Shown: piece by piece, positions 41,957 to 58,204 of the stretch | How the letters are laid out: each line of letters opens with the position of its first letter | Position numbering within the stretch: the stretch's first letter is position 1 | DNA from: Chloroflexota bacterium | GTDB taxonomy: Bacteria > Chloroflexota > Chloroflexia > Chloroflexales > Roseiflexaceae | Length of the DNA: 64,000 nt | NCBI GenBank assembly: GCA_013388755.1 | Contig: JACAEQ010000078.1 | Location: 1 to 64,000, forward strand | Direction: 5' to 3' | Translations under genes and position numbers: made by a program | The notes under the pieces: model-generated | What the model was told of the DNA's origin: nothing | The model's database searches: none | The model's input: the letters and a program-made list of their open reading frames with translations, nothing else

Positions 41957-41988
41957 GATGGATCCTTTCATCTTGCCTTCGGCAGAAA

Positions 41989-42043
41989 GGAGATTGCTTC
42001 GTTTCGCTTGCAATGACATCCAATCCGTTCTTCGGACAGGCTC
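41989..42043. repeat. Copy of the dispersed fold-back repeat
   Basis: Shares GGAGATTGCTTCG, TGCAATGACATCCAATCCGT and GGACAGGCTC with the elements at 1-183 and 46143-46246. As at position 183, it ends flush with the stop codon (42044) of the gene read leftward. Confidence 0.7.
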
Positions 42044-43235: not shown

Positions 43236-44024
43236 TCAGTAGTTAGTAGCGATTCTGGCCAGCAGGCCACCGTCGGCGATCAGCACCGTGCCAGTGATCA
43301 GTGACGCAGCCGGGCTGGCGAGGAAGAGGACGGCAGTCGCGATCTCTTCGGGCGGCGCAACCCGTCCCATCGGCACGGCCTCGGCGGCTTCACGCTGGAT
43401 CGACGGCGGCACGTCGGAACGATCCTTCCCTTCCCACATCATCGGCGTATCTACACTGCCGGGGACGATACAATTCACCCGCACGCCGCGATCGGCCAGG
43501 TCGAGCGCCATGGCGCGGGTCAAGCCGATGATGCCGGCTTTCGAGGCGGTGTAGGCGGTCAGGCCGCGCATCGTTGCATACGCCAGCACCGACGCCATAT
43601 TGACGATCGCACCACCGCGCTCGAGCAGATGCGGCACGACTGCGCGCGCGCAGAGATAGTGGCCGATCAGGTTCACACCGATTGTCTGCTCCCACTGGTC
43701 AATCGGTTGCTCCCAGAACAGGCCGCCAGAGCTGATGCCAGCATTATTGAAGAGGAGGTCAACGCGCCCGAAACGTTGCAGGGTCGTATCAACCATATGT
43801 GCGACCTGCGCCCGATCCGACACATCCGCAGCAACGAAGGTCGCCGTCCCCCCGGCCGCGCGAATGGCCGCCGCCGCCTGTTCACCCGGCTCGGCGCGCC
43901 GCCCCACCAGAACGACGGCAGCGCCACGCTCGGCAAAGAGTTGCGCGGTTGCCCGGCCAATGCCCGATGTTGCGCCGGTAACGATCGCAACCTGGCCGTC
44001 GAACCGCAGCGAGACATCAACCAT
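43236..44024 (-). CDS. Classical SDR oxidoreductase (262 aa)
   Basis: An NAD(P)-dependent alcohol/keto reductase. IVTGATSGIGRATAQLFAE at residue 13, NNAGIS near 90, the active Ser in VNMASVLAYA near 143 and the Tyr-Lys pair in TAYTASKAGI near 156 are all intact, and the end ITGTVLIADGG is canonical. I chose the ATG at 44024, since GGAGAT lies 6 nt upstream; the frame is open 9 codons more. It follows the aspartoacylase-like gene in the FadR-controlled operon. Confidence 0.9.
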   Translation of the reverse strand: MVDVSLRFDGQVAIVTGATSGIGRATAQLFAERGAAVVLVGRRAEPGEQAAAAIRAAGGTATFVAADVSDRAQVAHMVDTTLQRFGRVDLLFNNAGISSGGLFWEQPIDQWEQTIGVNLIGHYLCARAVVPHLLERGGAIVNMASVLAYATMRGLTAYTASKAGIIGLTRAMALDLADRGVRVNCIVPGSVDTPMMWEGKDRSDVPPSIQREAAEAVPMGRVAPPEEIATAVLFLASPAASLITGTVLIADGGLLARIATNY

Positions 44025-44061
44025 ACATAAATCTCCGGCTATGGCAGCCATTCTGCCACGG

Positions 44062-45048
44062 TCATGATGTCGTGTTTACATGGCGTGGCCGCGAGCGGCG
44101 CCACACGAGGATGATCTGCTCGCCCGGGTAGACGGATGCAAAGGTCTGGTACGCTCCTATGACGCCGTCGCACGGCGTTACGACTTCTCCGATCACATCA
44201 CCGAACGGGTCGAGGATGATCCCGAGTGTCTGGCCACTGGCAACCTGTTCACCCAGCGCGACGCGTCGTTCGAAGAGACCACCCGCCGGCGCAGCGATCC
44301 AGTACAAATCCCAGAACCGCGGCGCCAACGCGGGCATGGTCGGGCCAGCAAGCATCCCCAGGTGGCGCATGACACCCATCACCCCGCTGACATAGCGCTG
44401 CCAGTTGGTGGCATCTATCATGCCCTGCCCGCCAATCTCGCCCTCAATTGCGGGAATACTGCGCGCTGCCAGCGCGGCGATCAGCACACCCGGCAAGAGC
44501 GGCAACGGCATCAGATCGGCAAAACCGAAGGCCCGGGCCGCGGCATAGGAAGCCTGGCCGACCGGGCCGGGAACATCTACAAACTCCATCCATGGCAGCA
44601 GCGTACCATATCCACCGAGACCGTGCAGCGACACGACAAGCTGCATCTCGGCAAAAAGGACATGGACGAGCGCGTGCGCCAGTTGTTCAGAAATCGAACC
44701 ACTGGCGCGCCCTGGAAATACGCGATTGAGGTCAACGCCATCAAGTGCACCGCGGCGGGTACGGGCCGTGTAGGCGGGAAGGTTCGCAATCGGCACCAGC
44801 AGCAGCGTTCCTGCCAGACCCTCGCAGGTAATGGCGGTACTGAGCGCCTGTATTGCGCGCACACCCTCGAGCTCATCGCCATGGACGCCGGCGACCACCG
44901 CCAGGTGCGGCCCGTCGCTGGCGCCACAGATAATCTCCAGGGGGATGGTAAGGGACGTACCATCAATCCCGGGAGCAAACGCATACCGTAGCCGTTCGCG
45001 TCGCAACGGTCTGTACCGCAGATCCGGCCCGGTCACGATGGCAGCCAT
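44062..45048 (-). CDS. Succinylglutamate desuccinylase / aspartoacylase family zinc hydrolase (328 aa)
   Basis: AVVAGVHGDELEGVRAIQ near residue 52 supplies the His and Glu zinc ligands, and LVVSLHGLGGYG near 140 the second His. DLNRVFPG near 110 is the substrate Asn-Arg motif. A C-terminal beta domain follows (EQVASGQTLGIILDPFGDVI). The family removes acyl groups from N-acylamino acids. The ATG at 45048 has GGAGATG upstream. It is the first gene of the leftward operon and has a strong promoter with an operator-like site. Confidence 0.85.
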   Translation of the reverse strand: MAAIVTGPDLRYRPLRRERLRYAFAPGIDGTSLTIPLEIICGASDGPHLAVVAGVHGDELEGVRAIQALSTAITCEGLAGTLLLVPIANLPAYTARTRRGALDGVDLNRVFPGRASGSISEQLAHALVHVLFAEMQLVVSLHGLGGYGTLLPWMEFVDVPGPVGQASYAAARAFGFADLMPLPLLPGVLIAALAARSIPAIEGEIGGQGMIDATNWQRYVSGVMGVMRHLGMLAGPTMPALAPRFWDLYWIAAPAGGLFERRVALGEQVASGQTLGIILDPFGDVIGEVVTPCDGVIGAYQTFASVYPGEQIILVWRRSRPRHVNTTS

Positions 45049-45101
45049 TGCATCTCCACTGGCCCATCCGGCCACCATACCTGAAGCTCCATGGCTGTAA
45101 A

Positions 45102-45157
45102 CGTCTGTTTGTCTGACGAATTGGCCGTAGTGTAACACGACCATTTCCGGGTGTCAA
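45102..45157 (-). promoter_or_regulatory. Promoter and putative FadR-type operator of the aspartoacylase/creatininase operon
   Basis: Minus-strand TTGACA (45157-45152), 17 nt, TACACT (45134-45129). Just downstream of the expected start lies CGTC-TGTTTGTCT-GACG (45102-45118), which contains TTGTCTGACGA. That matches the FadR-subfamily operator pattern TnGTnnnACnA. GTCTGTTTGTCTGA recurs, with one difference, at 45207-45220. Confidence 0.75.
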
Positions 45158-45168
45158 TGCCGGCTGGC

Positions 45169-45230
45169 TTGACAGTCTCCAGGCTCTATGCTACACTCCC
45201 GGAAAGGTCTATTTGTCTGATATTATGACA
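45169..45230 (+). promoter_or_regulatory. Promoter and putative operator of the FadR-family regulator gene
   Basis: TTGACA (45169-45174), 17 nt, TACACT (45192-45197). Within the leader, TTTGTCTGATATTATGACA (45212-45230) has TGTC/GACA arms and agrees with the site at 57005-57023 in 15 of 19 positions. The -35 hexamers of this promoter and the opposite one are only 11 bp apart. Autoregulation is likely. Confidence 0.75.
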
Positions 45231-45238
45231 GTACACAT

Positions 45239-45946
45239 ATGACATTCAAATCTGCGTCACGCAAGACGCTGTCAGAGTCCGTCGTTGAGCAATTCCTCGA
45301 GCAGTTTCGCCGTGGCGAGCTCAAGCCGGGTGATCGCTTACCGACAGAGCGCGAATTGATGGAGCAATTCGGCGTCGGTCGCTCAACCGTGCGCGAGGCG
45401 TTGCAGGGGCTTGCCCGTATGAACCTGATCGAAGGGCGGCCCGGTTCCGGCACCGTTGTGAAGCCCTTCGACCTGACGGCGTACCTCCGGCCCGATCTCT
45501 TTTCGGCGATGCTCGGCGGCAGTAGTGCCACGGAACTCCTCGAAGTGCGCGAGATCATCGAAGTAGCGGCCATCGGCCTGGCAGCGCAACGCGCCACCGC
45601 CGACGATCTGGCTGCGCTTGATGATATGTTGACCAGCGCAGCGGAGGCACTTGCGCGCAACGAACCAACCTATGAATTGTCGGCGCTGTTCCACGTGGGC
45701 CTGGCGCACGCTGCGCACAACGGGTTGCTGCTGAACATTATGCTGTCGCTGTATGAATTGCTGCGCGCCCGAGGTGAGCATACCGTTGACCTGTACAGCT
45801 ATCTGGAATGGGAAATCGAGTCGCACCGCGAGCTGTTCAACCTGGTGCGCGCTGGCGATGTCGCAGGTGCGCAGCGGGCCATGGATGCGCACCTGCGTCA
45901 CGCGGCCCATCGCCTGGGTGAGATCAGCGGCGACGATGCGGTCTGA
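45239..45946 (+). CDS. FadR-subfamily GntR transcriptional regulator (235 aa)
   Basis: The N-terminal winged helix-turn-helix reads GELKPGDRLPTERELMEQFG then VGRSTVREALQGLARMNLIE and GRPGSGTVV (residues about 27-78). The C-terminal all-helical FCD domain contains LLEVREIIEVAAIGLAAQRA, FHVGLAHAAHN and HRELFNLVRAGD, which carry the usual Asp/His metal-site pattern. Such regulators usually respond to carboxylic or sugar acids. It is divergent from the aspartoacylase/creatininase operon and precedes two enolase-superfamily genes, so it most likely represses this catabolic island and is relieved by its substrate. Confidence 0.9.
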   Translation: MTFKSASRKTLSESVVEQFLEQFRRGELKPGDRLPTERELMEQFGVGRSTVREALQGLARMNLIEGRPGSGTVVKPFDLTAYLRPDLFSAMLGGSSATELLEVREIIEVAAIGLAAQRATADDLAALDDMLTSAAEALARNEPTYELSALFHVGLAHAAHNGLLLNIMLSLYELLRARGEHTVDLYSYLEWEIESHRELFNLVRAGDVAGAQRAMDAHLRHAAHRLGEISGDDAV

Positions 45947-46039
45947 GACCATTCCATCCCGGACAGATCGCGCCGGTGACGCACGGGTGTCGCCGATCAA
46001 CCGTTGGCCATCATTCGCACTTCTGCGGTAGAGTATGCC

Positions 46040-46069
46040 ATTTCTGATGCGGCGCGCCGCATCAGAAAT
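46040..46069. repeat. 30-bp perfect palindrome
   Basis: Arms of 15 bp (ATTTCTGATGCGGCG and its exact complement) meet with no loop. It lies 94 nt after the regulator stop. No T-run follows, so it is not a standard terminator; cruciform, RNA 3'-end protection or a protein site are possible. Confidence 0.75.
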
Positions 46070-46142
46070 CAGAATCCCTATGGTCCGGCGGCCCGAGACG
46101 CCCGTACAAGCATGACTCTGCCAGCACTCCAGGCGCTTTGTA

Positions 46143-46246
46143 CCTATCCGAAAACCCATGGGCCTGCTGTCATTGCGCGGAGCGCCAGCTAGGAGATTGC
46201 TTCGCTCGCGCTCGCAATGACATTGACCATCTGGTTTTCGGATAGG
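46143..46246. repeat. MITE-like element with 14-bp terminal inverted repeats
   Basis: CCTATCCGAAAACC (46143-46156) and its exact complement (46233-46246) bound an inner pair TGTCATTGCG (46168-46177) / CGCAATGACA (46213-46222). The core matches the other dispersed copies. It ends 19 nt before the ATG of the enolase-family gene. Confidence 0.8.
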
Positions 46247-46265
46247 CTCTAATCGGAGGTTGCCT

Positions 46266-47423
46266 ATGAAGATCACCGATATGCGGATCTTTGTTGTCGA
46301 CGCCGACTGGCGCGACTGGATCTTCGTCAAACTCCTTACCAGCGACGGTCTGACCGGCGTTGGCGAGGCCGCGCTCACCGGTCAGGAACAGTCAATCGTA
46401 GCGGCGCTTCACGCCATCAAAAGCTACATCCTCGGCAAGGATCCCTTTCAGATCGAGAATCATTGGCGCAACCTCTATCACAGCAGCTTCTTCCGCGGTC
46501 CTGTCTTTCTTGCGGCGCTCGGCGCCGTCGAGATGGCATTGTGGGACATTGCCGGCAAGGCGTTGCACGTCCCGGTGCATACCCTGCTCGGCGGCCCCTG
46601 CCGTAGCCAGGTGCGCTGTTACACCCACATCAGCGAAGCGACCTCGGGCCACTCGGTCGGGCAGCGGGTTGAAGAGGCGCTGCAGGCCGTGGCCGAGGGG
46701 TGGACCGCGCTCAAATGGGATCCGCTGCCGGCCAACTTTCTTTCCTTGAGTCCGGCGCAGATGCGTGATGTCGTCGAGCAAATCCAGGCAGTACGCGAAG
46801 CCGTCGGCGATGATGTCGAGATCCTGGTTGAGTGCCACGGTCGCCTCGACCCGAACACCGCCATGCTGCTGGCACGTGAAATTGCGCCGCTGCGACCCTA
46901 CTTCATGGAGGAACCGGTTCCACCGGAGAACCTCGACGGGCTGGCGCGGGTCGCAGCCCACGCCCCGCTGCCGCTGGCGGTTGGTGAACGAGTCTATACC
47001 GCGGCTGAGTTCTGGCCGATCCTCGAGCGCCAGCTCGTCGGTTATATTCAGCCCGACGTTATCTTTGTCGGGGGGGTGCTGGCGTGCAAGAAGATCGCTG
47101 CGCTGGCCGAAGCCCGGTGCGTCGGCGTGGCGCCTCACAATCCACACGGGCCGGTCTGCACCGCGGCGACCCTGCACCTGGCGGCCAACCTGCCGAACTT
47201 CAGCATCCTGGAAATGCCCGCCGACGATTATCTCTGGTCGGCCCACTGGCGCGACGACTTCCTGATTGACCCGGAACCACTGCGCGTCAGGCAAGGGTAT
47301 CTTGCGTTGCCTATGGCCCCCGGTCTGGGCGTCGAACTCAATGAGGAGGGTATTCTGCGCCACCCGCCGCGCACCCGTGCCTGGGGCGTGTCATTCCAGG
47401 CCGAAAGCGCGATCATTGACTGA
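46266..47423 (+). CDS. Enolase-superfamily sugar-acid dehydratase, galactonate-dehydratase-like (385 aa)
   Basis: A mandelate-racemase-subgroup enzyme. The capping domain (residues 1-125) is followed by the barrel. Metal ligands appear as Glu in ILVECHGRLDP near 195, Glu in FMEEPVPPENL near 220 and Glu in AVGERVYT near 246. The base His is in VAPHNPHGPVCTAA near 295, and ECHGR resembles the His-containing motif of galactonate dehydratase. It probably removes water from an aldonic acid. GGAGGTTGCCT precedes the ATG at 46266, directly after the MITE-like repeat, so that element may supply or replace its promoter. Confidence 0.82.
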   Translation: MKITDMRIFVVDADWRDWIFVKLLTSDGLTGVGEAALTGQEQSIVAALHAIKSYILGKDPFQIENHWRNLYHSSFFRGPVFLAALGAVEMALWDIAGKALHVPVHTLLGGPCRSQVRCYTHISEATSGHSVGQRVEEALQAVAEGWTALKWDPLPANFLSLSPAQMRDVVEQIQAVREAVGDDVEILVECHGRLDPNTAMLLAREIAPLRPYFMEEPVPPENLDGLARVAAHAPLPLAVGERVYTAAEFWPILERQLVGYIQPDVIFVGGVLACKKIAALAEARCVGVAPHNPHGPVCTAATLHLAANLPNFSILEMPADDYLWSAHWRDDFLIDPEPLRVRQGYLALPMAPGLGVELNEEGILRHPPRTRAWGVSFQAESAIID

Positions 47424-47435
47424 TGGAGCAGGGCG

Positions 47436-48716
47436 ATGTTCGACTATGATGCGCTGGCGCACGCGCATGATGAGTGGCTCGAGTATCCGTCGTATGATCC
47501 TGGCCATGATATGCCTTACGAGGAATACAGGCTGCGCTGCGCGCGCGCGCGCGCCCTCATGGAACAGTATCACCTCGATGCGCTGGTGATTACCAGCAGC
47601 GCGGTCGGCTGGTGGTTCACGAGCCTGCACGAACCCCACGAATGGCATGACCGTTGCCAGGCGCGTGCGACCTGGTTCATTCTGACACACGACGGCGACT
47701 ACCTCTACATGCCGCCCACCGCCGCTGGCGAGCACTTCAACACGACCCGTCGCTCAACCTGGGTGAGCGAGATCCGTGCCATCGTTGAGCGTGTGGATCC
47801 GGCAGAACAGCCGCGCGCCGAGATCTGGGGGTTGTGGCAGATCCCTCGAATCTGCGCCGATCTCAACCTCAATCACGCGCGCCTTGGGTTTGAGCTTGGC
47901 GACTGCATGACACTCGGCATGTCCGTCAATGACTTTCTTCGCCTGCGCGACATGCTGCCGCACGCGCAACTGGTGGACGGATCACCGATCATCCGGCGGT
48001 TAATGCAGGTACATACCCCGCTTGAGATCGAACGTGTGCGCCTGGCATGTGAAGCCGGCGTCTGGATCCACGAACAGACGCCGCATGTGCTGCGCCCTGG
48101 CATAACCGAGCGTGAGTTCGTCACCCGCCTGGCGGAGCGCTTTGCCGAACGCTATGGCGCAGCGGCGTACCGTTACGATCCTGCCGGCGCCTGGGATGTG
48201 CGCAATCCGGATCGCGACGACTCTGCAATCTTTCATGCGGTGCTTACCGATCGCGTGTTTCAACCTGGCGACACCGTCGCGCGTTGCCTCAGCGGTGTGA
48301 GCTATGCCGGCTACTGGGGGGACGTTGACCGCGTCTGGCACATTGGCAAGCCACCTGCGCAGGTCGAGCACTGGTATCGCATCACGTGGGAATGCGTCCG
48401 CGCCATGGAAGAGGCGGTGCGACCCGGAGCACGCTGTTCCGACGTATATGCGGCATGCGCGCGTATGGAGCGGCGCTTCGGCCTGCCGGAACGAGTGGCT
48501 GGCCGGGTAGGGCACGGCCTGTTCAATACCGGTGGAATCTCGGTTCACCCCGATTGCCACCTGGTTCTGGAACCTGGCATGATCGTTTCGTGTGAACCGA
48601 TGTTTGCCAATGCCTGGGGCTGGTTCGATCTCGAGGACCAGTTTGTCGTCACTGCAACAGGTTGTGAACCGCTGCATCGCCGCGCCCCCGAAACCATACC
48701 GGCGATCCTCTCGTGA
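47436..48716 (+). CDS. M24-fold protein with first metal Asp replaced by Cys (426 aa)
   Basis: A creatinase/prolidase-type two-domain protein with a 30-residue N-terminal extension. The metal segment reads ARCLSGVSYAGYWGDVDR: the second Asp is kept, but Cys stands where the first belongs and the spacing is one residue longer. The His (GRVGHGLFNTG), Glu (VSCEPMF) and final Glu (FDLEDQFVVT) are present. Activity may be metal-free, single-metal or altered. It lies 12 nt after one enolase-family gene and 18 nt before another, so it is part of the rightward operon. Confidence 0.8.
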   Translation: MFDYDALAHAHDEWLEYPSYDPGHDMPYEEYRLRCARARALMEQYHLDALVITSSAVGWWFTSLHEPHEWHDRCQARATWFILTHDGDYLYMPPTAAGEHFNTTRRSTWVSEIRAIVERVDPAEQPRAEIWGLWQIPRICADLNLNHARLGFELGDCMTLGMSVNDFLRLRDMLPHAQLVDGSPIIRRLMQVHTPLEIERVRLACEAGVWIHEQTPHVLRPGITEREFVTRLAERFAERYGAAAYRYDPAGAWDVRNPDRDDSAIFHAVLTDRVFQPGDTVARCLSGVSYAGYWGDVDRVWHIGKPPAQVEHWYRITWECVRAMEEAVRPGARCSDVYAACARMERRFGLPERVAGRVGHGLFNTGGISVHPDCHLVLEPGMIVSCEPMFANAWGWFDLEDQFVVTATGCEPLHRRAPETIPAILS

Positions 48717-48734
48717 CGCTGACGGAGGCAACCC

Positions 48735-49907
48735 ATGAAGATCACGCATATTGACTACCATGTGCTGATTGTGCCGGATGTTGATACTGGCGCCAGTTCC
48801 TCGGCACAGGACAATCTGGTTGTCGAGATTCATACTGATGAAGGGATCGTTGGTATTGGCGAAACGGATGTCAATCCCTGGATCGCGCGCGAGTGCATTC
48901 GCGCCCGTGGTACACATTCGATGGGGCTGGGCCTGGAAGAGACCCTGATCGGCAAGGACCCGCTGCAGCCCGAGGCCCTGTGGCAGATGCTCTACAGTGG
49001 CTCGAAAATGAATGGGCGGCGCGGTGCACTGATCTGTGCCCTTGGCGCAATTGACATGGCACTGTGGGACGTCAAAGGCAAGGCGCTTGGCGTTCCCATT
49101 TACACGCTCCTTGGTGGCGCCGTGAAAGATCACATCGTGCCCTATGCATCCCTCTTGCCGACCGGCCGCACCCTGGGCGAATATACCCGATCGCTGGTCG
49201 AGAAGGTACGCCGCGCCAGGGAGGAGTTCGGTTACCGTGCGGCCAAGCTGGAAGTGTGCATCAATGGCCCGTATGCGCATAACGGCTTGAATGAGCGCGA
49301 TGAGCATGTCGTCGAGATTGTTGCTGCCTGCCGCGAAGCCGTCGGCGCCAGTTTCACGCTGATGGTTGACGTGGCCTATGCGTGGGCCGATGCCAAACGC
49401 GCGCTGCGTGTGCTGCGCCAGCTCGAGCCGTACGATGTCTTCTTCTTTGAGACGCCGCTCGATATTGACGACCTTGCAGGTTATGCGTTCCTGGCCGACC
49501 ACTCACCCATTCGGATCGCGGCCGGCGAGTGGCAGAACACCCACTGGGAGTTCCTCGACCTGGCCGATCGGGGGAACATTGATGTGCTTCAACCTGATAT
49601 CGGCCGGGTAGGCGGATTCACCGAGGCGCGGAAGGTCTGCCAGATCGCGGCTGATCGTGGGCGGCTGATCGTGCCGCACTGCTGGAAGAGCGGCATCGGC
49701 ATTGCCGCCAGTGCACACCTGGCGGCTGCGACGGCGTGTTGCCCCTATATCGAGTTCCTCCCCGCCGAGCTTTCGGAGTCGGCGCTGCGCCGGGACCTGG
49801 TGGCCGACGAATTGCGAATGGTCGATGGGGTCATTCCGTTACCGCAACAACCCGGCCTCGGTATCGAACTCAACCGCGAGGCGCTCCGCATGTACCGCGC
49901 CGAGTGA
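48735..49907 (+). CDS. Enolase-superfamily enzyme, mandelate racemase group (390 aa)
   Basis: The second enolase-fold enzyme of the island, not a close copy of the first. The barrel begins with RAAKLEVCINGP near 172, which has one catalytic-position Lys. Ligands follow as Asp in TLMVDVAYAWAD near 213, Glu in FFFETPLDIDDL near 239 and Glu in IAAGEWQNTHWE near 265. The His is in LIVPHCWKSGIGIAAS near 316. Members dehydrate or racemise hydroxy-acids. Two dehydratases with different active sites suggest either two substrates or two successive steps. Confidence 0.82.
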   Translation: MKITHIDYHVLIVPDVDTGASSSAQDNLVVEIHTDEGIVGIGETDVNPWIARECIRARGTHSMGLGLEETLIGKDPLQPEALWQMLYSGSKMNGRRGALICALGAIDMALWDVKGKALGVPIYTLLGGAVKDHIVPYASLLPTGRTLGEYTRSLVEKVRRAREEFGYRAAKLEVCINGPYAHNGLNERDEHVVEIVAACREAVGASFTLMVDVAYAWADAKRALRVLRQLEPYDVFFFETPLDIDDLAGYAFLADHSPIRIAAGEWQNTHWEFLDLADRGNIDVLQPDIGRVGGFTEARKVCQIAADRGRLIVPHCWKSGIGIAASAHLAAATACCPYIEFLPAELSESALRRDLVADELRMVDGVIPLPQQPGLGIELNREALRMYRAE

Positions 49908-49999
49908 CGGTGCGTGCGATGCGTTGCCACGACCCGGGTGGGCGCGAAGAGCAACGGTGTCCGTTCAGTGGAGCAACGCCGGGCGCGATCGCCTGATCC

Positions 50000-50215
50000 C
50001 TATCCCTCACGCGTGCGTCCGATCAACAGACATGATGGCACATAGCCGAATGAGGCATAGGTTGCGTGCGCGGCCGCGTTCCAGAGCTGGGTGCCGACGG
50101 AAGCGAACCGCGCGCCCTGCGCGTAGGCGCTGCGCAGGGCATCAGCAATCAACGCGGCGGCGATCCCTTTCCGCCGGTACTCTTCGCGCACCCCCAGCGC
50201 CCAGATGATAGCTCT
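50000..50215 (-). pseudogene. C-terminal remnant of a GNAT acetyltransferase
   Basis: About 70 codons encode the acetyl-CoA loop and end of a GNAT fold (IWALGVREEYRRKGIAAALI, then WNAAAHATYASFGYVPSC). The N-terminal half is missing: upstream of about 50215 the frame loses GNAT likeness and enters the 3' end of the neighbouring tandem-domain gene, which is itself cut short there. A simple deletion joining the two genes explains both. Confidence 0.75.
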
Positions 50216-51458
50216 GCAACCACGCGACGTTGCGATCGTCGGCGCCGCCGGCAGGAGCGATGCCCAGCCACCAGCGCCGTTCATCGCGCAGCGGCCCGGG
50301 GTAGAAGTTCACCGCCGACATGGCACCCGGGCACATCTGGCTCCACATCTCGAACTCGGCGCATGTCACCTCCGGAACAACCGGCTGATCGGCGTTGACG
50401 GTCATGCCAAAGGGACGATCGATGGCGGTATGCTCGCCAAGCCACGGTGGCAGGTGCAACCATTGCAGGTCCGACCTGAGTGGCGGGATCGTCAGGGGCG
50501 GCGATTGTGTCGGCGCCTGGCCGGGATGGTGGAAGAGGATCGTTGCCTGTGCCGGGTGCATCTCGTCGAGATTATGGGTGAACAACAGGTTCCATGTGAC
50601 ATCGAAGTTTGCCTCACGCGGTAACACCCCCCTGTCGACGATCATGCCGCCGGGATAGTGCCACATGGTGGGGCCCGGGGAACGGAGCGGAAAACCAATG
50701 AGGCTGCGCGCTCCCACGACTGATGGACGCAAGGTCCAGCGCGCCCGCCGCGTGGTCTGCGCGATCACGGGGGCGCTGGCATCAATCCGCACGGCATAAT
50801 CATGCTGAACACGGATGGGAGGACCGTTGACACTGCCAAGCAGGTGCGGGCCACGCTCCCAGATGTCGAGCCCGGCCACACGTTCTGCCGGAATCTCGAT
50901 CTGCTCTTCCGCGCCCGATTCGCGTGTGCGCAGAAAGTAGCGGATGCGCACGGTTACCGGCTCATAGCCGGGATTGAGGATACTGAGCAATTCACGCTCA
51001 TACCAGCTCTGCGGCCCCCCCTGGTAGCAATCGGGAAAGATCCAGACCGTCTCATCAGTCAGCGGGCCGGGATAGGGCGTCGGCGCGACCATCGCGTCGG
51101 GAACCGGGTCCCAGAACGTATAATCCTCATGGCGCGCCTGTGGCAGCACGGGCACATCCGACTCGACGACGATCCAGAATGGCTGCTTGTGCGGCACAAC
51201 GCTGAGGGATGCCAGTTCAAGGGTGGTGATCGCGCCAGGCGCCACATCAATGCCGGCAGATGTCGGTGGACGGTCGGTATGGTAGAAACGCGCGGTCACG
51301 TGGGCCGTTGCGGTATGAGGGTTGTAGACCAGCAACTGTGACGAACACTCGAGCGGCCGTCCCGGTAGTGTCCGGCAGGTTGCCGGCAGATCGTCCCAGA
51401 TGAATCCATCGCCAGCGTACCAGAGCGTACCGGCACGTTGATACTGTGGTGGTGGCAT
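50142..51458 (-). CDS. Tandem sensory-rhodopsin-transducer-like (DUF1362-type) protein, truncated at its 3' end (438 aa)
   Basis: Three repeats of about 120 residues each follow the plan of the Anabaena sensory rhodopsin transducer family: an opening Trp/Gly strand, a CNPG- or YNP-type turn (QLLVYNPHTATAHVTARFYH; LLSILNPGYEPVTVRIRYFL; LLFTHNLDEMHPAQATILFH), and a closing strand (VVESDVPVLPQARHED; RIDASAPVIAQTTR; VNADQPVVPEVTCAEFE). A linker YPGPLTDETVW leads into repeat 2; the same linker, YPGPLRDERRW near residue 386, should lead into a fourth repeat, but coding likeness stops by about residue 408 (near 50240). The last 30 residues are out-of-frame GNAT sequence. GGGAGGCG precedes the ATG. 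ASRT-like domains bind small ligands; a carbohydrate role is inferred from the neighbours. Confidence 0.7.
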   Translation of the reverse strand: MPPPQYQRAGTLWYAGDGFIWDDLPATCRTLPGRPLECSSQLLVYNPHTATAHVTARFYHTDRPPTSAGIDVAPGAITTLELASLSVVPHKQPFWIVVESDVPVLPQARHEDYTFWDPVPDAMVAPTPYPGPLTDETVWIFPDCYQGGPQSWYERELLSILNPGYEPVTVRIRYFLRTRESGAEEQIEIPAERVAGLDIWERGPHLLGSVNGPPIRVQHDYAVRIDASAPVIAQTTRRARWTLRPSVVGARSLIGFPLRSPGPTMWHYPGGMIVDRGVLPREANFDVTWNLLFTHNLDEMHPAQATILFHHPGQAPTQSPPLTIPPLRSDLQWLHLPPWLGEHTAIDRPFGMTVNADQPVVPEVTCAEFEMWSQMCPGAMSAVNFYPGPLRDERRWWLGIAPAGGADDRNVAWLQSYHLGAGGARRVPAERDRRRVDC

Positions 51459-51480
51459 GCACGCCTCCCGATGCTGCGTG

Positions 51481-52809
51481 TTATGGCGCGTCGAGCGCCG
51501 CAAGATCGCGTAGCGTACCATTGATGGCGGCAATTGTGCGATCGGCCTGCTCGCGTCGCGGAAGCGCAATCATTGCGAGGTCGGCGCGCAACTGCCGCAG
51601 ATCAGAAGCATAGCCAGCGCGCTGTGCGGCGGTCATGCGGTCGCGCAGATAGATCGGCGGGCCGGCAGCAGCCGGGTTCTCCGACCAGATCAGAGGTTCA
51701 AGCGATAACGGCCCGTTGCCGGGTATGAAATCCGAGCGTGTGAAATAGGCGTCTTCACCGCGGGCGAACCATGCCGTCAGTTGCTCCTGCGCCACACCCG
51801 ATACCCCATACACCGCGGCGACCGCTCTGCTGAGCGCCTCCTCGGGCGATGTGTCAGGTGCGCCAGGGATGGCCGCCCCGGTACGCCACGAGACTTCTTC
51901 CACCGGATTGGCAAATGGACGATAGAAGTATTCCACCGCCCGCCCGCCATCGTCCCACAGGCGACGCAGGGCGCGCGCCGAGCGCAGGCCACAGGGCACG
52001 AACCAGCGCAGCCGCTCATAATGCTGTGGTGGTTCAACGAAGACCCCGCCGACCGAGCCGTAAGCGCAGGCCAGACCACGGGCAATGTCGGCGCGACGCC
52101 CGGCTGTTGCTGAGCGTTCGCGTACTTCGACCATGTAGTCAACGACGCGCGAGATACGGCGCACATGCTCAAAATCCGCCGGATCGTCGAGCGCCAGGCC
52201 CCAGGACGCCTGGCCAATCGTCCAGTCCGGCCTGCCAGCGCGAACATACTCGGCGCAGCGTACCAGCAGATCGGCATGGTGCTCGGCAGCCGACCGCGCG
52301 CGACACTGGTCGCACGAACAGCGCCCCTGATCAGCCGACTGCATGCTGATACCATCGAGGCCCCAGCGTGGATCCATCAGAAAATCGAGCACACGGCGCT
52401 GCCACTCCCATGCCTGGGGGCTGAACGGGCACATACTGTGCGCATGACCGCGCGCCACCTCTGGATGCGCCCGAATGATGTCGTCAAAACCCCAGGAGTA
52501 GATACCGGTGCCGTGCAGGATCTTGAGGCCACGCTCATGAGCAGCAGCGACAAACGTGTGCAGCCGCGCCTCACGTTCAGCATCAATAATGTTCGCGAAA
52601 GGTACGGGCCAGGAACGATCAATAAACAGACCCCAGACCACGTTGTATGTCACATCCATCTCGGCCTGGACGTCGAGAAAGCGCAGCTGATCGGCGAGCA
52701 ATCTGTCGTCCCAGCGGATGCACGGCCATGGATCATGCGGCGCCGGTTCCGACGCCAGATCGCGCAACCAGCCGCACGTTACCCGATAGCGAAAACGATC
52801 TGCTGGCAT
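51481..52809 (-). CDS. Glycoside-hydrolase-like TIM-barrel protein with a Cys cluster (442 aa)
   Basis: The pattern of short strands with Trp/Asp (WGLFIDRSWPVPF; GLKILHGTGIYSWGFDDII; SPQAWEWQRRVLDFLMD) fits a TIM barrel of the type found in uncharacterised glycosidases. SADQGRCSCDQCRARS near residue 163 is a CxCxxC cluster like that in alpha-glucuronidase-type families, probably structural or metal-binding. No signal peptide is seen, so it acts in the cytoplasm on an imported sugar or glycoside. It is 22 nt upstream of the tandem ASRT-like gene on the same strand. The exact family could not be fixed. Confidence 0.55.
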   Translation of the reverse strand: MPADRFRYRVTCGWLRDLASEPAPHDPWPCIRWDDRLLADQLRFLDVQAEMDVTYNVVWGLFIDRSWPVPFANIIDAEREARLHTFVAAAHERGLKILHGTGIYSWGFDDIIRAHPEVARGHAHSMCPFSPQAWEWQRRVLDFLMDPRWGLDGISMQSADQGRCSCDQCRARSAAEHHADLLVRCAEYVRAGRPDWTIGQASWGLALDDPADFEHVRRISRVVDYMVEVRERSATAGRRADIARGLACAYGSVGGVFVEPPQHYERLRWFVPCGLRSARALRRLWDDGGRAVEYFYRPFANPVEEVSWRTGAAIPGAPDTSPEEALSRAVAAVYGVSGVAQEQLTAWFARGEDAYFTRSDFIPGNGPLSLEPLIWSENPAAAGPPIYLRDRMTAAQRAGYASDLRQLRADLAMIALPRREQADRTIAAINGTLRDLAALDAP

Positions 52810-52838
52810 GCGTTATCACGGTATACCTTGTGCCGGAC

Positions 52839-52856
52839 ATTCACACGATTGTGAAT
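52839..52856. promoter_or_regulatory. 18-bp perfect palindrome upstream of the glycosidase-like gene
   Basis: ATTCACA-CGAT-TGTGAAT is an exact inverted repeat, 29 bp before the gene start at 52809. It is a candidate operator, perhaps of a LacI-type regulator. The half-sites are in the opposite order to a CRP site. Confidence 0.5.
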
Positions 52857-52897
52857 TGCCGACTTCTGACGGCTACAGCGGCTCATAGCGCGGTGCT

Positions 52898-53347
52898 TCA
52901 CGGAATAGGCGCCAGACCGATACGTGTACCATCATAGGTAAGAATGCGCGACGGTGTGAGTTTAATAATCACGTGCGGATTGCTAATCATCGAGGCGGGC
53001 GTTGGCGAGCGAACTCCTTCCTCGCCAAGGTACTTTGTATAGACCCGCCGCGCCATATCGCGCGCATACACCGGATCATCGAGCAACTCAGCGCGCCCTT
53101 CCAGAATGACTGATTTGAAACGCAACCCTCCCTCAGTGATATCAACGGTGACAGCACAGAACGGATTGGAACGCAGATTGTTCGCCTTGACCGAATCAGG
53201 CGGCGTTTCCATATACATACTGGTGCCGTCCCACCAGAACCACATCGGTGCGATATGGGGCCGGCCGTCGGGCCGAACCGTGGCGATCCGTGCGAGCAAC
53301 GGTGCAGCAAGAAACAGATCGATCTCTGCACGTGAGAGTGTCGTCAC
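52898..53347 (-). CDS. PPOX-class (pyridoxamine-phosphate-oxidase-fold) flavin/F420 protein (149 aa)
   Basis: A split-barrel protein that binds FMN or F420. LARIATVRPDGRPHIAPMWF near residue 18 is the family opening, MYMETPPDSVKANNLRSNP near 44 the cofactor-phosphate region, and SVILEGRAELLDD the dimer strand. The length is typical of F420-dependent members. The start is GTG at 53347 with GGAGG 5 nt upstream. It separates the ABC transporter genes from the glycosidase-like gene and may be unrelated to them. Confidence 0.82.
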   Translation of the reverse strand: MTTLSRAEIDLFLAAPLLARIATVRPDGRPHIAPMWFWWDGTSMYMETPPDSVKANNLRSNPFCAVTVDITEGGLRFKSVILEGRAELLDDPVYARDMARRVYTKYLGEEGVRSPTPASMISNPHVIIKLTPSRILTYDGTRIGLAPIP

Positions 53348-53363
53348 ATATGCCTCCAGTCAA

Positions 53364-53440
53364 GTGCCTGTCTGAAACCACCATACGCCCCGTGTCATTG
53401 CGCGGAGCGCGAGCGGCGCGGGGCTGAAACAATCTCCTAC
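53364..53440. repeat. Copy of the dispersed fold-back repeat
   Basis: GTGCCTGTCTGAAACCA, TGTCATTGCGCGGAGCG and CAATCTCCTA follow in the same order as in the other copies. The outer right arm is not visible, so this copy is partial. It lies between the PPOX and the substrate-binding protein genes; the remaining bases to 53532 show no gene. Confidence 0.65.
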
Positions 53441-53532
53441 CACACCACTCGGCGGCTCGCGAGCCACCCATCCATAGACGCAGACATCCGATGCATCCGG
53501 GGTTATCCGCCGCTCCGGCGGCCAGCGCAGGG

Positions 53533-55008
53533 TCAACCCTTCAATTCGCTCAACTTCTGCATTGTCTCGGTCTTGACTTGCGCCATCGCCTCTTCGGGCG
53601 TACGATTGAGGCGGATAACGCCATCGATCGCTTCGCCGAGCAGATTGGAATACTCTGCAGCGACAGGATTCATCGGCATCATAGTCGTCAACTTGCGCTG
53701 ACCATTGACAATGTCACGGCCGGCTTTGATCCAGGGATGGCCCAGCCGCTCATCATTCATCATACTCTTGCGTACCAGCATTTCCTTGAACTTGGCGTGA
53801 ACATTGACCTGAAACTCTGTAGAGAGGTAGAAGCGCAGGAGCTCCCACGACCAGTCAGGATTCCGCGTACCGGCCGGAATGACCCAGGGCCACGACCACC
53901 AGGCGATGGCGCTCTCGCCGGCACGCTTGCCTTCCGGGGCCGGTGGCGGCGCCACGGCATGGTACTGCTCGCCAAATTTCCAGTCAGGGAAGAAGTCGAA
54001 GATCGCCTGGCCCGTCCAGTCGCCGCCGACCTGCATCACGGCGTTGCCCGCCAGCCATGGATTCTGCGCTCCTTCGCCGGCACCGATGCCCGATGACCAG
54101 CGCTGCAGGTTCTCGGCGCCATAGAGCCTGACCTGCTCGACCAGGTCATTGAGCGCCGCGAGCACGCCCGGATGATCCGGTGTCGGTTCGCCGGCGTTGA
54201 CGTCCCAGATCTCACCGCCGAAGACGGCAATCCAGGCAAAATACTCCCACAACCAGTTCGGCATACGTAACCCGAGCCGCTCGATGCCGCCACTCGCGTC
54301 CGTTCTGGTGAGTTCCCTGGCCCACTGCCACATCTCGTCGGTATCTTGCGGCACCGCATCAACGGGCTTGCCGATGTCAGCAAAGATCTGCGGGCGCATC
54401 CAGAGCAAGAAGACGCCGGCAGTGTCAACCATGCCCCAGATCTTACCATCCATCCGGCAGGTGTCCATAATACCCGGCGCATAATCATCGAGCGGGAACT
54501 TGCTTCTGGCGATATAGTCATCGAGAGGAATGATGACATTACGGCGCGCCCACGCCCCCATACGTTCGACGCAGTCCCACGTATGAAACAGGTCGGGCGG
54601 GGTGCCGGCGGCAGCGGCGGTGATGAAGGCGTCACAGTTCTGACCGGCCACCGGCTCGACGATCACATTGGGGTAGGCATTCGAGAAGCGTGCGATAATC
54701 TCATTGGTAAACTGGAGCGCCGGTTCGTAGTTGTTCCCCCACCAGTAGACCAGTTTGATCTGCTCCGAGGGATTCGCCATCAGGCTGGTGAACCCCTCGA
54801 TCGTCTCACCCTGTGGTAGTGGAATGGCCGTGGCGGTTGGACCGACCGGCGTGGCATTGACGGTCGGCTGGGTGACTGCCGTTGCCTCGCTCGCAGGCGT
54901 TGGCGCGGCACCCTGGGGTGCGCCGCCGCAGGCAGCGATCAGGGAGCCGGCAGCACCGGCTCCGGCCAGTCTCAGCAGTTGACGACGCGAGAGTCTGGGT
55001 GTGCTCAT
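53533..55008 (-). CDS. ABC transporter sugar-binding lipoprotein (491 aa)
   Basis: The signal has a twin-arginine pair (SRRQLLRLAGAGAAGSL) and the lipobox LIAACGG, so it is a Tat-type lipoprotein tethered outside the membrane. A Thr/Pro-rich spacer covers residues 30-70. The rest is a family 1 (MalE/UgpB-like) solute-binding fold: LVYWWGNNYEPALQFTNEII, NAYPNVIVEPVAG, then GNAVMQVGGDWTGQAIFDF. A tract of Trp residues suggests a carbohydrate ligand. AGGAGGT precedes the ATG. It is the last of three genes read from the promoter at 57040-57068. Confidence 0.88.
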   Translation of the reverse strand: MSTPRLSRRQLLRLAGAGAAGSLIAACGGAPQGAAPTPASEATAVTQPTVNATPVGPTATAIPLPQGETIEGFTSLMANPSEQIKLVYWWGNNYEPALQFTNEIIARFSNAYPNVIVEPVAGQNCDAFITAAAAGTPPDLFHTWDCVERMGAWARRNVIIPLDDYIARSKFPLDDYAPGIMDTCRMDGKIWGMVDTAGVFLLWMRPQIFADIGKPVDAVPQDTDEMWQWARELTRTDASGGIERLGLRMPNWLWEYFAWIAVFGGEIWDVNAGEPTPDHPGVLAALNDLVEQVRLYGAENLQRWSSGIGAGEGAQNPWLAGNAVMQVGGDWTGQAIFDFFPDWKFGEQYHAVAPPPAPEGKRAGESAIAWWSWPWVIPAGTRNPDWSWELLRFYLSTEFQVNVHAKFKEMLVRKSMMNDERLGHPWIKAGRDIVNGQRKLTTMMPMNPVAAEYSNLLGEAIDGVIRLNRTPEEAMAQVKTETMQKLSELKG

Positions 55009-55074
55009 AGGTCAGTACCTCCTGGAATCCGTAATCCCAATACGCCGCCCGCGCGAAAGGCGTCACCGGGCCCG

Positions 55075-55968
55075 CTATTTCAGGCCTGTGGTCACAATGC
55101 CACGAATGAACGTCTGCTGCGCCGCGAGGAAAAGCACGATCATCGGCAGTGTGTAGAGCGTCGCTGCCGCCATCATGGCCCCGAGAGCGGTGCCGCCTGC
55201 GCCGTACCGCTGGGTGAACCCTTGCATGCCCAGCGACAATGTCCAGAGATCACGATCCTTCAAATAGATCAGCGGCCCCATAAAATCGTTGTACGTCCAG
55301 ATGAACGTGAACGCCACAAGCGTCGCGAGCGCCGGGCGTGCCAGCGGCATCACCACTCGCAGATAGATATCGAAATGCGAGGCGCCATCCATGCGCGCTG
55401 CATCAACCAGATCCCTGGGAATCGTGACAAAGAACTGGCGCATCAGAAAGATGAAAAACGCATCACCAAACAGTGCCGGTAGAGTCAGCGGCAGGAACGT
55501 ATTGACCCAGCCCAGCCGGCTATAGATGATGAACAATGGAATAAGCGTCACCTGACCGGGCAGCATCATCGTTGCCAGCACCAGGGCGAACAGGATGGGC
55601 CTGCCGGGCCAGTCAACGATTGACAGCGCATACGCGACCAGGGTACAGGAAACGATCCGCGCGAGCATGACCGATGTGGCGATGATCAGCGTATTGAGCA
55701 TATAGCGGGGAAAATCGACGAATGTCACGCCGTAGTAGTAGTTGATCCACATCACCGGGTTGGGCAGAAGCTGCGGAGGAACGGCAATGATCTGCTCCGG
55801 CGACTTGAGCGAGGTAGAAATCAACCAGAGCCATGGAAAGAGGAACAGGACGCTGACCGCAGCTACAAGCAGATAGAGTGCCACCTGGCCCAGCGTGCGC
55901 TGGAGCAGCACCATTCGCCGCGCTCGCTGGCGCACAGCGATCCCGCTCTCGGACATCGTTGTGCTCAT
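55075..55968 (-). CDS. Sugar ABC transporter permease, MalG type (297 aa)
   Basis: Six membrane segments, the first after a basic start (RQRARRMVLLQRTLGQVALYLLV). The EAA loop that docks the ATPase is DAARMDGASHFDIYLRVVMPLARPAL near residue 205. TFIWTYNDFMGPLIYL follows as in MalG/UgpE. GGAGGCCCACCC precedes the ATG, 13 nt after the partner permease gene. No ATPase gene is present, so a shared MsmX-like ATPase elsewhere must energise it. Confidence 0.9.
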   Translation of the reverse strand: MSTTMSESGIAVRQRARRMVLLQRTLGQVALYLLVAAVSVLFLFPWLWLISTSLKSPEQIIAVPPQLLPNPVMWINYYYGVTFVDFPRYMLNTLIIATSVMLARIVSCTLVAYALSIVDWPGRPILFALVLATMMLPGQVTLIPLFIIYSRLGWVNTFLPLTLPALFGDAFFIFLMRQFFVTIPRDLVDAARMDGASHFDIYLRVVMPLARPALATLVAFTFIWTYNDFMGPLIYLKDRDLWTLSLGMQGFTQRYGAGGTALGAMMAAATLYTLPMIVLFLAAQQTFIRGIVTTGLK

Positions 55969-55981
55969 GGGTGGGCCTCCT

Positions 55982-56926
55982 TTACACCAGGTCGTACGAC
56001 GTCCAGCGTCGCGAGACGCGCAGGAGCAGCCATGTCACCAGCGCAGTGATTGCGAAGAGAATCCATGCCATGGCAGCCGCATAGCCCATGTTCAGATACT
56101 GGAACGCCTGAACATACAGGTACAGGCCATAGAACAACAGCGAGCCTTCGGGCGCTCCCGGCGACGTGCCGGCCCCGCCGATAATGTAGGCTTCGGTAAA
56201 GAACTGCAATGACCAGATCACGCCGGTGATGAGCTGAAACAGCGTGACCGGTGAGATCAGTGGGAGTGTGATGCTCCAGAATTGTTGCGTTGTACTCGCG
56301 CCGTCGATTTCGGCGGCCTCGTAGAGTTCTTGCGGCACGCCCTGTAACGCCGCCAGATAGATGATGGTCATTGCCCCGACGGCCCACATCTGCATAATGA
56401 TGATGCTGGGCTTCGACCAGAGCGGGCTGGCGAACCACAATGGGCCAGTGATGCCGATGGCTTTCAGCGCGTTGTTCACCAGGCCCAGTTCCGGGTTGAG
56501 GATCCAGCGCCAGAGCAGCGCCAGGGCAACTGGCGGCATCAGCGTCGGCAGAATATAGATTGTGCGCCAGATCACCTGACCGCGAACCTTCAAATTCAGC
56601 AGCAGCGCACACAGCAGCGCAAACACCAGTTGCGCCGGAATGCCGATGAAGGTCAGGAATGCGCTGTTATACAGCACCTTCGGAAAAAATCGATCGCCGG
56701 TAAACAGATCAACGTAGTTCTTCCAGCCAATCCAGCGCGGCTCCAGCGGGATCTCGTAGCGTGTCAAACTGTAGTACAGGGTTGTGATCATCGGGTAGGC
56801 AATAAAGACGACCAGCCCGATAAGCCACGGCGCCGAGAAGAGCAGACCAGCGATAAACTCGCGCTGCGCGCGTTTGCTCCAGCGAGGCCGGCGCAGGATC
56901 GGCGATGCTTCAACGCTCGTTGCCAT
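55982..56926 (-). CDS. Sugar ABC transporter permease, MalF type (314 aa)
   Basis: Six membrane segments beginning FIAGLLFSAPWLIGLVVFIA. The EAA loop is LYEAAEIDGASTTQQFWSITLP near residue 205. It pairs with the MalG-type permease downstream to form the heterodimeric channel. First gene of the operon, with a strong promoter and operator-like site in the 282-nt gap upstream. A GGGGGG run before the ATG acts as ribosome site. Confidence 0.9.
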   Translation of the reverse strand: MATSVEASPILRRPRWSKRAQREFIAGLLFSAPWLIGLVVFIAYPMITTLYYSLTRYEIPLEPRWIGWKNYVDLFTGDRFFPKVLYNSAFLTFIGIPAQLVFALLCALLLNLKVRGQVIWRTIYILPTLMPPVALALLWRWILNPELGLVNNALKAIGITGPLWFASPLWSKPSIIIMQMWAVGAMTIIYLAALQGVPQELYEAAEIDGASTTQQFWSITLPLISPVTLFQLITGVIWSLQFFTEAYIIGGAGTSPGAPEGSLLFYGLYLYVQAFQYLNMGYAAAMAWILFAITALVTWLLLRVSRRWTSYDLV

Positions 56927-57004
56927 ACAACCCCCCCGTCCGATGGCGGTTACACTGCCGATGGTCCAACCGCGCGTCGCCGGGTGATACCGGCGTTATC
57001 GCAT

Positions 57005-57068
57005 TGTAAGAATGTCAGACCAAGTGGAGGATTAGCGTCAGTTTAACCTATGGTTGTGGTGATGTCAA
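57005..57068 (-). promoter_or_regulatory. Promoter and putative FadR-type operator of the sugar ABC operon
   Basis: Minus-strand TTGACA (57068-57063), 17 nt, TAAACT (57045-57040). In the leader, TTGGTCTGACATTCTTACA (57023-57005) agrees with the regulator's own site at 45212-45230 in 15 of 19 positions and sits at the same distance from the -10. Confidence 0.72.
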
Positions 57069-57140
57069 GCATTTCTCAACAAAGAGTGGGAAGATTTCAA
57101 CCAGCGCATGCGTCCAGCGCAGCCGAGACGTGCGAACCGG

Positions 57141-57200
57141 TTGACACCTCCCGCAGAGCAGGCATATACTGGTGCCACATGTTCGTCTGATGATATGATG
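57141..57200 (+). promoter_or_regulatory. Promoter and putative FadR-type operator of the truncated SDR gene
   Basis: TTGACA (57141-57146), 18 nt, TATACT (57165-57170). TTCGTCTGATGATATGATG (57182-57200) follows at the usual distance and agrees with the 45212-45230 site in 14 of 19 positions. Confidence 0.65.
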
Positions 57201-57208
57201 AATGATTT

Positions 57209-58204
57209 ATGCCCGGGCGATTGCACGGCAAGACGGCGCTGATCACCGGTGGTGGTCGCGGCATCGGCCGCGGTATCGCGTTGCGTTTTGCGCAGGAGGG
57301 TGCCGCTGTCGCTATCGTGCAACGCGATGAACCATCGGCCAGGGCGACCGTTGATGCCGTGGTTGCGGCAGGGGGTATAGCAATCGCGCCGGGCGGAACC
57401 GATGTCAGTGTGCCGGAGCAGGTCGCGCGCGCGGTGAGCACGACGATCGCGCACTTCGGAACGATCGATATCCTGATCAACAATGCCGGCATCGCCGGCG
57501 CGAACGGCCCTTTTCTGGACGTGACCTTCAGCGCCTGGCAGCGGATCATTGACGTGAACCTGAGCGGCATGTTCCTTTGTGGTCAGGCGGTCGCGCGGCA
57601 CATGGTCGAGCACGCGATTCGCGGGCGCATTGTCAATGTCGGTTCGGTGAACTCATTCGCGGCCGAACGTGAAGCGGCGGCATATGTTGCTGCAAAGCAT
57701 GGTGTGCTGGGGCTGACGCAGGCAATGGCGATCGATCTGGCATCGTACGGCATTACGGTGAACTGCCTGGCGCCGGGGCCGATTACGGTCGAGCGCAATG
57801 CAGCAATGTTTGCATCGCTTCAGGAACAGATCGGTACGGGCGTACCGCTGGGCCGGCCCGGAACCATTGAGGAGGCGGCCGCCGCGGCACTGTTTCTCGC
57901 GTCCGATGAAGCTTCCTTTGTGACCGGTGCGACCCTATCAAGAAGTACGGGCCGGGGACCGGCTGTATACGCTGCTCGACCTGACCGGCACCGTGTGTTA
58001 CGAGCACTACGCGGCCCACGCGGGCCTGGTTTCGGCGATGCGCGCCTTCGCCGCGATTCAGGAAGGGGAGTGGGACATTGCCGTTCTCATGCCCGTTACG
58101 GATTGAACAGGTGCTGCCGGTCAATGCGCCTGCCCTATCGCCCCAGCGTCTCAAGAATGCCGCAGAGCGTCTCGATCCATGCCCCATCGCCGCCGGCATG
58201 GTAG
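57209..58204 (+). CDS. SDR oxidoreductase with a disrupted C-terminus (331-aa open frame)
   Basis: Residues 1-242 are a normal classical SDR: ALITGGGRGIGRGIALRFAQ, NNAGIAG, the active Ser in VNVGSVNSFA, Tyr-Lys in AAYVAAKHGV, and FVTGAT. A normal member ends here with a short VDGG segment. Instead, from about base 57937 the frame runs through 89 residues of Arg-rich, non-SDR sequence and overlaps the mfd 3' end. The sequence after the break codes well in another frame, so the gene appears fused by deletion to the tail of a lost neighbour. The catalytic residues remain, so partial function cannot be excluded. Confidence 0.75.
   Translation: MPGRLHGKTALITGGGRGIGRGIALRFAQEGAAVAIVQRDEPSARATVDAVVAAGGIAIAPGGTDVSVPEQVARAVSTTIAHFGTIDILINNAGIAGANGPFLDVTFSAWQRIIDVNLSGMFLCGQAVARHMVEHAIRGRIVNVGSVNSFAAEREAAAYVAAKHGVLGLTQAMAIDLASYGITVNCLAPGPITVERNAAMFASLQEQIGTGVPLGRPGTIEEAAAAALFLASDEASFVTGATLSRSTGRGPAVYAARPDRHRVLRALRGPRGPGFGDARLRRDSGRGVGHCRSHARYGLNRCCRSMRLPYRPSVSRMPQSVSIHAPSPPAW
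57939..58106 (+). pseudogene. 3' remnant of an unidentified gene
   Basis: In the frame starting at 57939, 55 codons read QEVRAGDRLYTLLDLTGTVC and on to WDIAVLMPVTD before a TGA. Third positions are almost all G or C here, as in real genes of this window, and not in the SDR frame. It has no start or ribosome site. I do not recognise the family. Confidence 0.55.

Follow-up and report, generated by a model that had tools for sequence, protein, structure and literature searches.

Transcriptional regulators of the FadR subfamily, among them FadR, PdhR, LldR and GlcC, bind operators with the consensus TKGT-N3-ACMA, and specificity positions 28, 39 and 59 have been reported for the members that bind TKGT/ACMA boxes (PMC4494728). 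Among double-site FadR divergons, those in which each site lies near its own operon form the commoner class (71 of 100), and 6 of the 634 regulators in the same motif survey are from Chloroflexi (PMC4494728). Here, we analyzed a stretch of 64,000 nucleotides (nt) from a Chloroflexota bacterium of the Roseiflexaceae (contig JACAEQ010000078.1, positions 1 to 64,000; the window), in which a catabolic gene island contains a regulator of this type and four promoters, each followed by a common candidate operator just past the −10 element (Table 1). We estimate a probability of about 0.86 that this regulator is a repressor controlling four transcription units via the predicted operators.

The N terminus of the regulator contains a GntR winged helix-turn-helix (HTH) domain (PF00392, 4.7e-21, 74.7 bits, cut-off 27), and its C terminus contains an all-helical FCD domain (PF07729, 7.9e-24, 84.9 bits, cut-off 24.3). 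This domain pair places the protein in the FadR subfamily, so that the assignment made in an earlier inspection of the letters alone (the sequence-only reading) proved sound. With the HTH starting at residue 11, R38, S49 and G69 match contact positions 28, 39 and 59 (PMC4494728), and these predicted contacts are as expected for GT/AC half-sites. None of the named NCBIfam regulator models was over its cut-off for the protein (NanR, 130 of 260 bits; LldR, 98.8 of 311; PdhR, 87.7 of 330).

A shared site past four promoters

In the region 44000-58500, the four best promoter-like matches are promoters 1 to 4. These promoters and the GTCTGAY sites that follow them were found at the places given by the sequence-only reading, with one correction: the core of site 1 is on the plus strand and thus faces against its own transcript, the minus strand reading GTCAGAC. 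Since the site is near-palindromic, the reversed orientation would be tolerated. All four sites are imperfect palindromes of the form WTNGTC-N-GAYNWW. As in described FadR-subfamily systems, GT and AC are three bases apart, the regulator divergon carries a pair of sites, one close to each operon, and extra half-sites are adjacent, as a GTCTG box at 45104, about 9 nt off the centre of site 1, could be. The island differs from those systems in its second half-site, which is often GAT and not GAC: GTCTGAY corresponds to GT-N3-AY in four of four sites, with exact AC in two and AT in the other two.

We infer from this arrangement that a regulator dimer would bind the palindrome over the start of transcription, 15 to 23 nt past the −10, at four targets that are predicted to be sigma-70-type promoters. 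Binding would shut off the operon of the aspartoacylase-like, SDR, M24 and creatininase-family genes, the ABC transporter unit and an SDR gene, and through autoregulation the regulator would also repress its own gene along with the enolase-superfamily and M24 genes that lie downstream of it. Because a dimer at this distance would span the transcription start and the first bases to be transcribed, repression might most simply work by occluding RNA polymerase or by blocking its escape from the promoter. Derepression would be induced by substrate, the inducer probably being the imported substrate or an intermediate and likely an amino-acid-like carboxylate.

All four sites lie past the predicted starts and thus within transcribed leaders, as would also be seen if GTCTGAY were a leader-RNA element of the 5′ untranslated region and not a DNA operator. 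This explanation appears very improbable to us because one site is antisense to its transcript, with the other three in the sense orientation, and because no Rfam match was obtained in 44000-58500; moreover, the motif is palindromic and FadR-like.

Occurrence in the genome and in relatives

The sequence-only reading had also compared the sites as 19-mers, and re-measurement returned its values, 15 of 19 positions for 45212 versus 57005 and 14 of 19 for 45212 versus 57182. Letter shuffles of two intergenic regions reached an agreement of 15/19 in 19 of 300 cases; this agreement alone is not significant, and the sites owe their significance to the set of four and to the relatives rather than to the pair match.

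In the window, TNGTCTGAYNW was observed 5 times against 0.79 expected, with 5 or more in 0 of 100 shuffles; the loose published pattern TNGTNNNACNA showed no enrichment there (8 versus 6.2 expected). Genome-wide scans (5.08 Mb) employed IUPAC patterns in place of the full matrix. They yielded 48 TNGTCTGAYNW sites, about 1 per 106 kb, four of which sit in two intergenic gaps of about 470 bp combined. When the 48 were ranked by the score of an upstream promoter, the island sites occupied ranks 1 to 4 (6.85 to 7.25 versus 5.55 for the next), and random positions equal these scores at a frequency of about 0.001 (null fractions, 0.0008 to 0.0016). The combined pattern TTGACA-N16-19-TAnnnT-N3-25-GTCNGAY matched the genome four times and no more, each time in the island, and the reversed control had no match. 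For four given promoters, the chance of all four clustering in the 12-kb island is about 2e-8.

Hits inside unrelated genes had been named in the sequence-only reading as a result that would speak against it. The bare 11-mer does occur in this way at most of the other 44 sites, but the promoter-preceded form is confined to the four. A crude test of codon composition flagged 38 of the 48 sites as lying inside plausible reading frames, a figure that includes two island sites crossed by open frames by chance. None of the 44 has a strong promoter upstream that would mark a further regulon member. The intergenic sites L013, L199, L200, L002, L028 and L185 were considered as members and found unconvincing; L199 adjoins a simple repeat.

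The agreement could also reflect a chance resemblance among short words close to strong promoters, in view of the shuffling result and of an 11-mer found 48 times, mostly within genes. We give this explanation almost no weight, as the combination of promoter and site is exclusive to the island and a top-scoring site was found in a held-out orthologous operon.

That operon is in G117, a genome of the same class but of another family, where a 60%-identical ortholog of the regulator lies divergent to a plus-strand gene run encoding a creatininase, an M24 protein, a solute-binding protein, two permeases, a PPOX-class protein, an AstE-like protein, an SDR, an M24 protein and another M24 protein; its transporter is of the SBP_bac_5/OppBC type. 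On the regulator side are genes for a FAD oxidoreductase (DAO family), a PALP-family enzyme and a protein of the enolase superfamily with 75% identity to that of the window. When the 59.7-kb contig of G117 was scanned with a matrix derived from the four window sites and no others, the top match, scoring 19.6, fell at the divergent promoter; this score equals those of the island sites, and the next match scored 12.2. The site, TGGTCTGACAA, lies 16 nt past the promoter of the creatininase operon, TTGACA-17-TATAAG; it also overlaps the −35 of a promoter directed toward the regulator, TTGTCA-17-TATACT, and transcription in both directions could therefore be controlled from one site. G117 also has repeated ATCAGAT boxes, which resemble extra half-sites. 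The locus (G117:C51:35696-52776; L163 and L164) presents the catabolic set as one long operon with a divergent arm.

A regulator of 36% identity is encoded in G175, which belongs to the phylum but is more distant; it is followed by a creatininase of 57 to 58% identity, and the exact motif ATTATCAGACAAT lies 15 nt past TTGACA-17-TATAAT; regulator, motif and creatininase form one run. Further along, the unit (L178, 10255-19971) encodes a PALP enzyme, an amidohydrolase, an MTTB-type methyltransferase, URO-D and an Opp transporter, and is possibly devoted to catabolism of an N-methylated compound. The PALP enzyme was dismissed as a shared pathway step since its genes in G117 and G175 are dissimilar, and the G175 promoter-plus-GTCNGAY matches C35 and C36 were rejected as regulon members because they are not near homologs of island genes.

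A sample of 400 genomes of the phylum yielded creatininases at E ≤ 1e-75 in three, the present genome, G117 and G175, each of which has this type of regulator. TNGTCTGAYNW is present upstream in 6 of 28 relatives of the regulator in the phylum, versus 0.15 expected, several times directly past the −10; as judged from these predicted promoters, a site after the −10 seems to be common to the regulator subgroup in the phylum. In genomes of the same family, an ortholog of the island was not found, with only regulator relatives of up to 40% identity and distant AstE-like matches. Since same-family genomes are without the regulator and a close creatininase and the family of G117 has the set, horizontal transfer of the catabolic set between families is suggested.

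Could another regulator of the genome also, or instead, bind the sites? GT-N3-AC sites of the FadR type are common to many FadR-subfamily proteins (PMC4494728), and regulator relatives of only 35 to 40% identity carry TGGTCNGACCA. The genome encodes just four FCD regulators, and only the one adjacent to the sites has such a site at its gene. In this survey of the FCD family, TNGTCTGAYNW was not found near the other three, which are preceded by TATAAT-rich or GTATAC-type sequence, and in G117 and G175 the motif accompanies the ortholog and the relative, respectively, of the adjacent gene. Binding by a different factor is hence considered improbable, and control by the adjacent repressor is preferred. 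One of the other three FCD regulators (L180; G000:C14:235-3585) has an enolase-superfamily-like gene in divergent orientation to it, and the locus shows a pair of divergent TTGACA promoters together with TATA-rich sequence; it is likely a second regulon of local scope for this class of enzyme.

Several observations weigh against control of the four units by this repressor. The palindromes of the four sites are imperfect, and the operator consensus was derived from the same four sites, which makes the within-window statistics partly post hoc. Base composition gives an expectation of 0.011 to 0.012 for GTCNGAY after each promoter, or 2 to 3 cases among the 218 promoter-like matches in the genome; the number of such cases is unremarkable, and the argument is their concentration in the island. 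Among more distant relatives elsewhere, just 1 of 79 has the motif, and that one is a Chloroflexi metagenome-assembled genome. Finally, the expectation of the sequence-only reading that the sites are conserved where the regulator is kept was borne out in G117 (60%) and G175 (36%) but not in G172, where no exact site lies upstream of a 44 to 46% regulator that has M24 and SDR genes in its neighborhood.

Genes of the island and their possible function

Table 1. Promoters, predicted operators and genes of the island (window coordinates; distances of site centres are counted from the last base of the −10)
Feature	Position	Strand	Description
Promoter 1	45157-45129	−	TTGACA-17-TACACT; aspartoacylase-like operon
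Promoter 2	45169-45197	+	TTGACA-17-TACACT; regulator gene
Promoter 3	57068-57040	−	TTGACA-17-TAAACT; ABC transporter unit
Promoter 4	57141-57170	+	TTGACA-18-TATACT; SDR2 gene
Predicted operator 1	45108-45120	+	TTTGTCTGACGAA; centre 15 nt past −10 of minus-strand aspartoacylase-like operon
Predicted operator 2	45212-45224	+	TTTGTCTGATATT; centre 21 nt past −10; putatively autoregulatory
Predicted operator 3	57023-57011	−	TTGGTCTGACATT; centre 23 nt past −10
Predicted operator 4	57182-57194	+	TTCGTCTGATGAT; centre 18 nt past −10
FadR-subfamily GntR regulator, 235 amino acids (aa)	45239-45946	+	GntR HTH 11-74, FCD 99-220
Aspartoacylase/AstE-like hydrolase	44062-45054	−	Pfam AstE_AspA_cat 2.1e-22; 39% relative in G117 operon
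SDR oxidoreductase 1	43236-44051	−	51% to G117 operon SDR
M24 family protein M24b	42044-43174	−	
Creatininase-family amidohydrolase	41141-42019	−	Pfam 6.9e-65; 71% in G117, 57-58% in G175
M24 family protein M24a	40029-41144	−	46% in G117 operon
Mandelate racemase/enolase-superfamily protein 1	46260-47423	+	Downstream of regulator
M24 family protein M24c	47436-48716	+	66% in G117
Mandelate racemase/enolase-superfamily protein 2	48735-49907	+	75% in G117
ABC permease 1	55982-56926	−	Pfam BPD_transp_1
ABC permease 2	55075-55968	−	Pfam BPD_transp_1
Solute-binding protein, SBP_bac_1 type	53533-55008	−	
PPOX/F420-class flavin oxidoreductase, 149 aa	52898-53347	−	TIGR03618 80.1 bits, over cut-off; 58% in G117 operon
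SDR oxidoreductase 2 (SDR2)	57209-58204	+	

The frame of the AstE-like protein is open to 45144, across the −10, and its start near 45054 was chosen by us. The proposal that operon, regulator, transporter and SDR belong to one unit was supported and is extended here by the PPOX-class gene. One may ask whether the regulator acts only at the two sites beside its gene, with the pair at 57 kb controlling unrelated genes via another factor, given that the G117 operon has a different transporter and contains no clear orthologs of the SBP_bac_1 transporter and SDR2. Yet the PPOX-class protein of the minus-strand unit at 57 kb is 58% identical to the product of a G117 operon gene, the operons of G117 and G175 each hold a transporter, and sites 3 and 4 share core, promoter type and spacing with sites 1 and 2. 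Such a division of the island is unlikely, if slightly less so than binding by another regulator, and we favor common control of all four units.

The transporter had been called a sugar ABC transporter; an ABC transporter it is, but "sugar" is a Pfam-level guess, and the G117 operon has an oligopeptide-type transporter. The name is unfit for the pathway because the window has SBP_bac_1 and both G117 and G175 have the SBP_bac_5/Opp type. Downstream in the transporter unit (50142-52809, minus strand) are frames of 475 and 442 aa, the latter without a Pfam match. Between the regulator and the next gene (46026-46250), we noticed an inverted repeat, CCTATCCGAAAACC ... GGTTTTCGGATAGG; 'tcattgcgcggagcg' words in the same stretch recur near 53400, and similar sequence is present in L181, as in a dispersed repeat element.

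Tentatively, and at somewhat less than even odds, the island may represent an undescribed catabolic pathway, comprising the creatininase-family protein, several M24 proteins, the AstE-like hydrolase, enolase-superfamily proteins and the PPOX-class enzyme, that spread across families as a unit with its FadR-type regulator and operator. Lineages would then differ in having one long operon or several units, each with its own operator copy, and the transporter would have been exchanged for an unrelated one under the same control. Common control of the four units would unite separately annotated hydrolases, oxidoreductases and a transporter in a single co-regulated pathway and so narrow down its substrate. 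The comparison also suggests that control was kept while the transporter differed between lineages, and it provides a clean operator candidate for a regulator type with few described sites in Chloroflexi.

Comparison with known systems

Escherichia coli NanR binds GGTATA repeats (PMC8012715, PMC4494728). It is the best-scoring named regulator model and the second-best solved structure for the island regulator, but no GGTATA-type repeats were seen in the island. In the literature, we did not find a described cluster of creatininase, M24, GntR and mandelate racemase genes.

Two catabolic systems share components with the island. Like ectoine catabolism (DoeA, M24; DoeB, AstE), it combines M24 and AstE/AspA proteins in one operon, and DoeB is the top NCBIfam match of the AstE-like protein. 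The scores are, however, far below the cut-offs (DoeB, 94.8 of 402.7; DoeA, at most 65.3 of 575 and at most 62.1 of 613), and ectoine catabolism does not, to our knowledge, involve creatininase or enolase-superfamily genes. In the case of creatinine/creatine catabolism (creatininase, creatinase and sarcosine oxidase), the creatininase model TIGR04448 gave 105.4 of 235 bits, and the M24 proteins matched dipeptidases and aminopeptidases best, also below cut-off. Judged from these model scores, neither ectoine nor creatinine catabolism is established as the function of the island. The likeness to the creatinine route lies in the creatininase-family protein, the M24/creatinase-fold proteins and, in G117, the DAO-family FAD oxidoreductase beside the regulator. 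Taken together, the proposed regulon is new, and both its type of regulator, FadR, and its mode of regulation are ordinary and well known.

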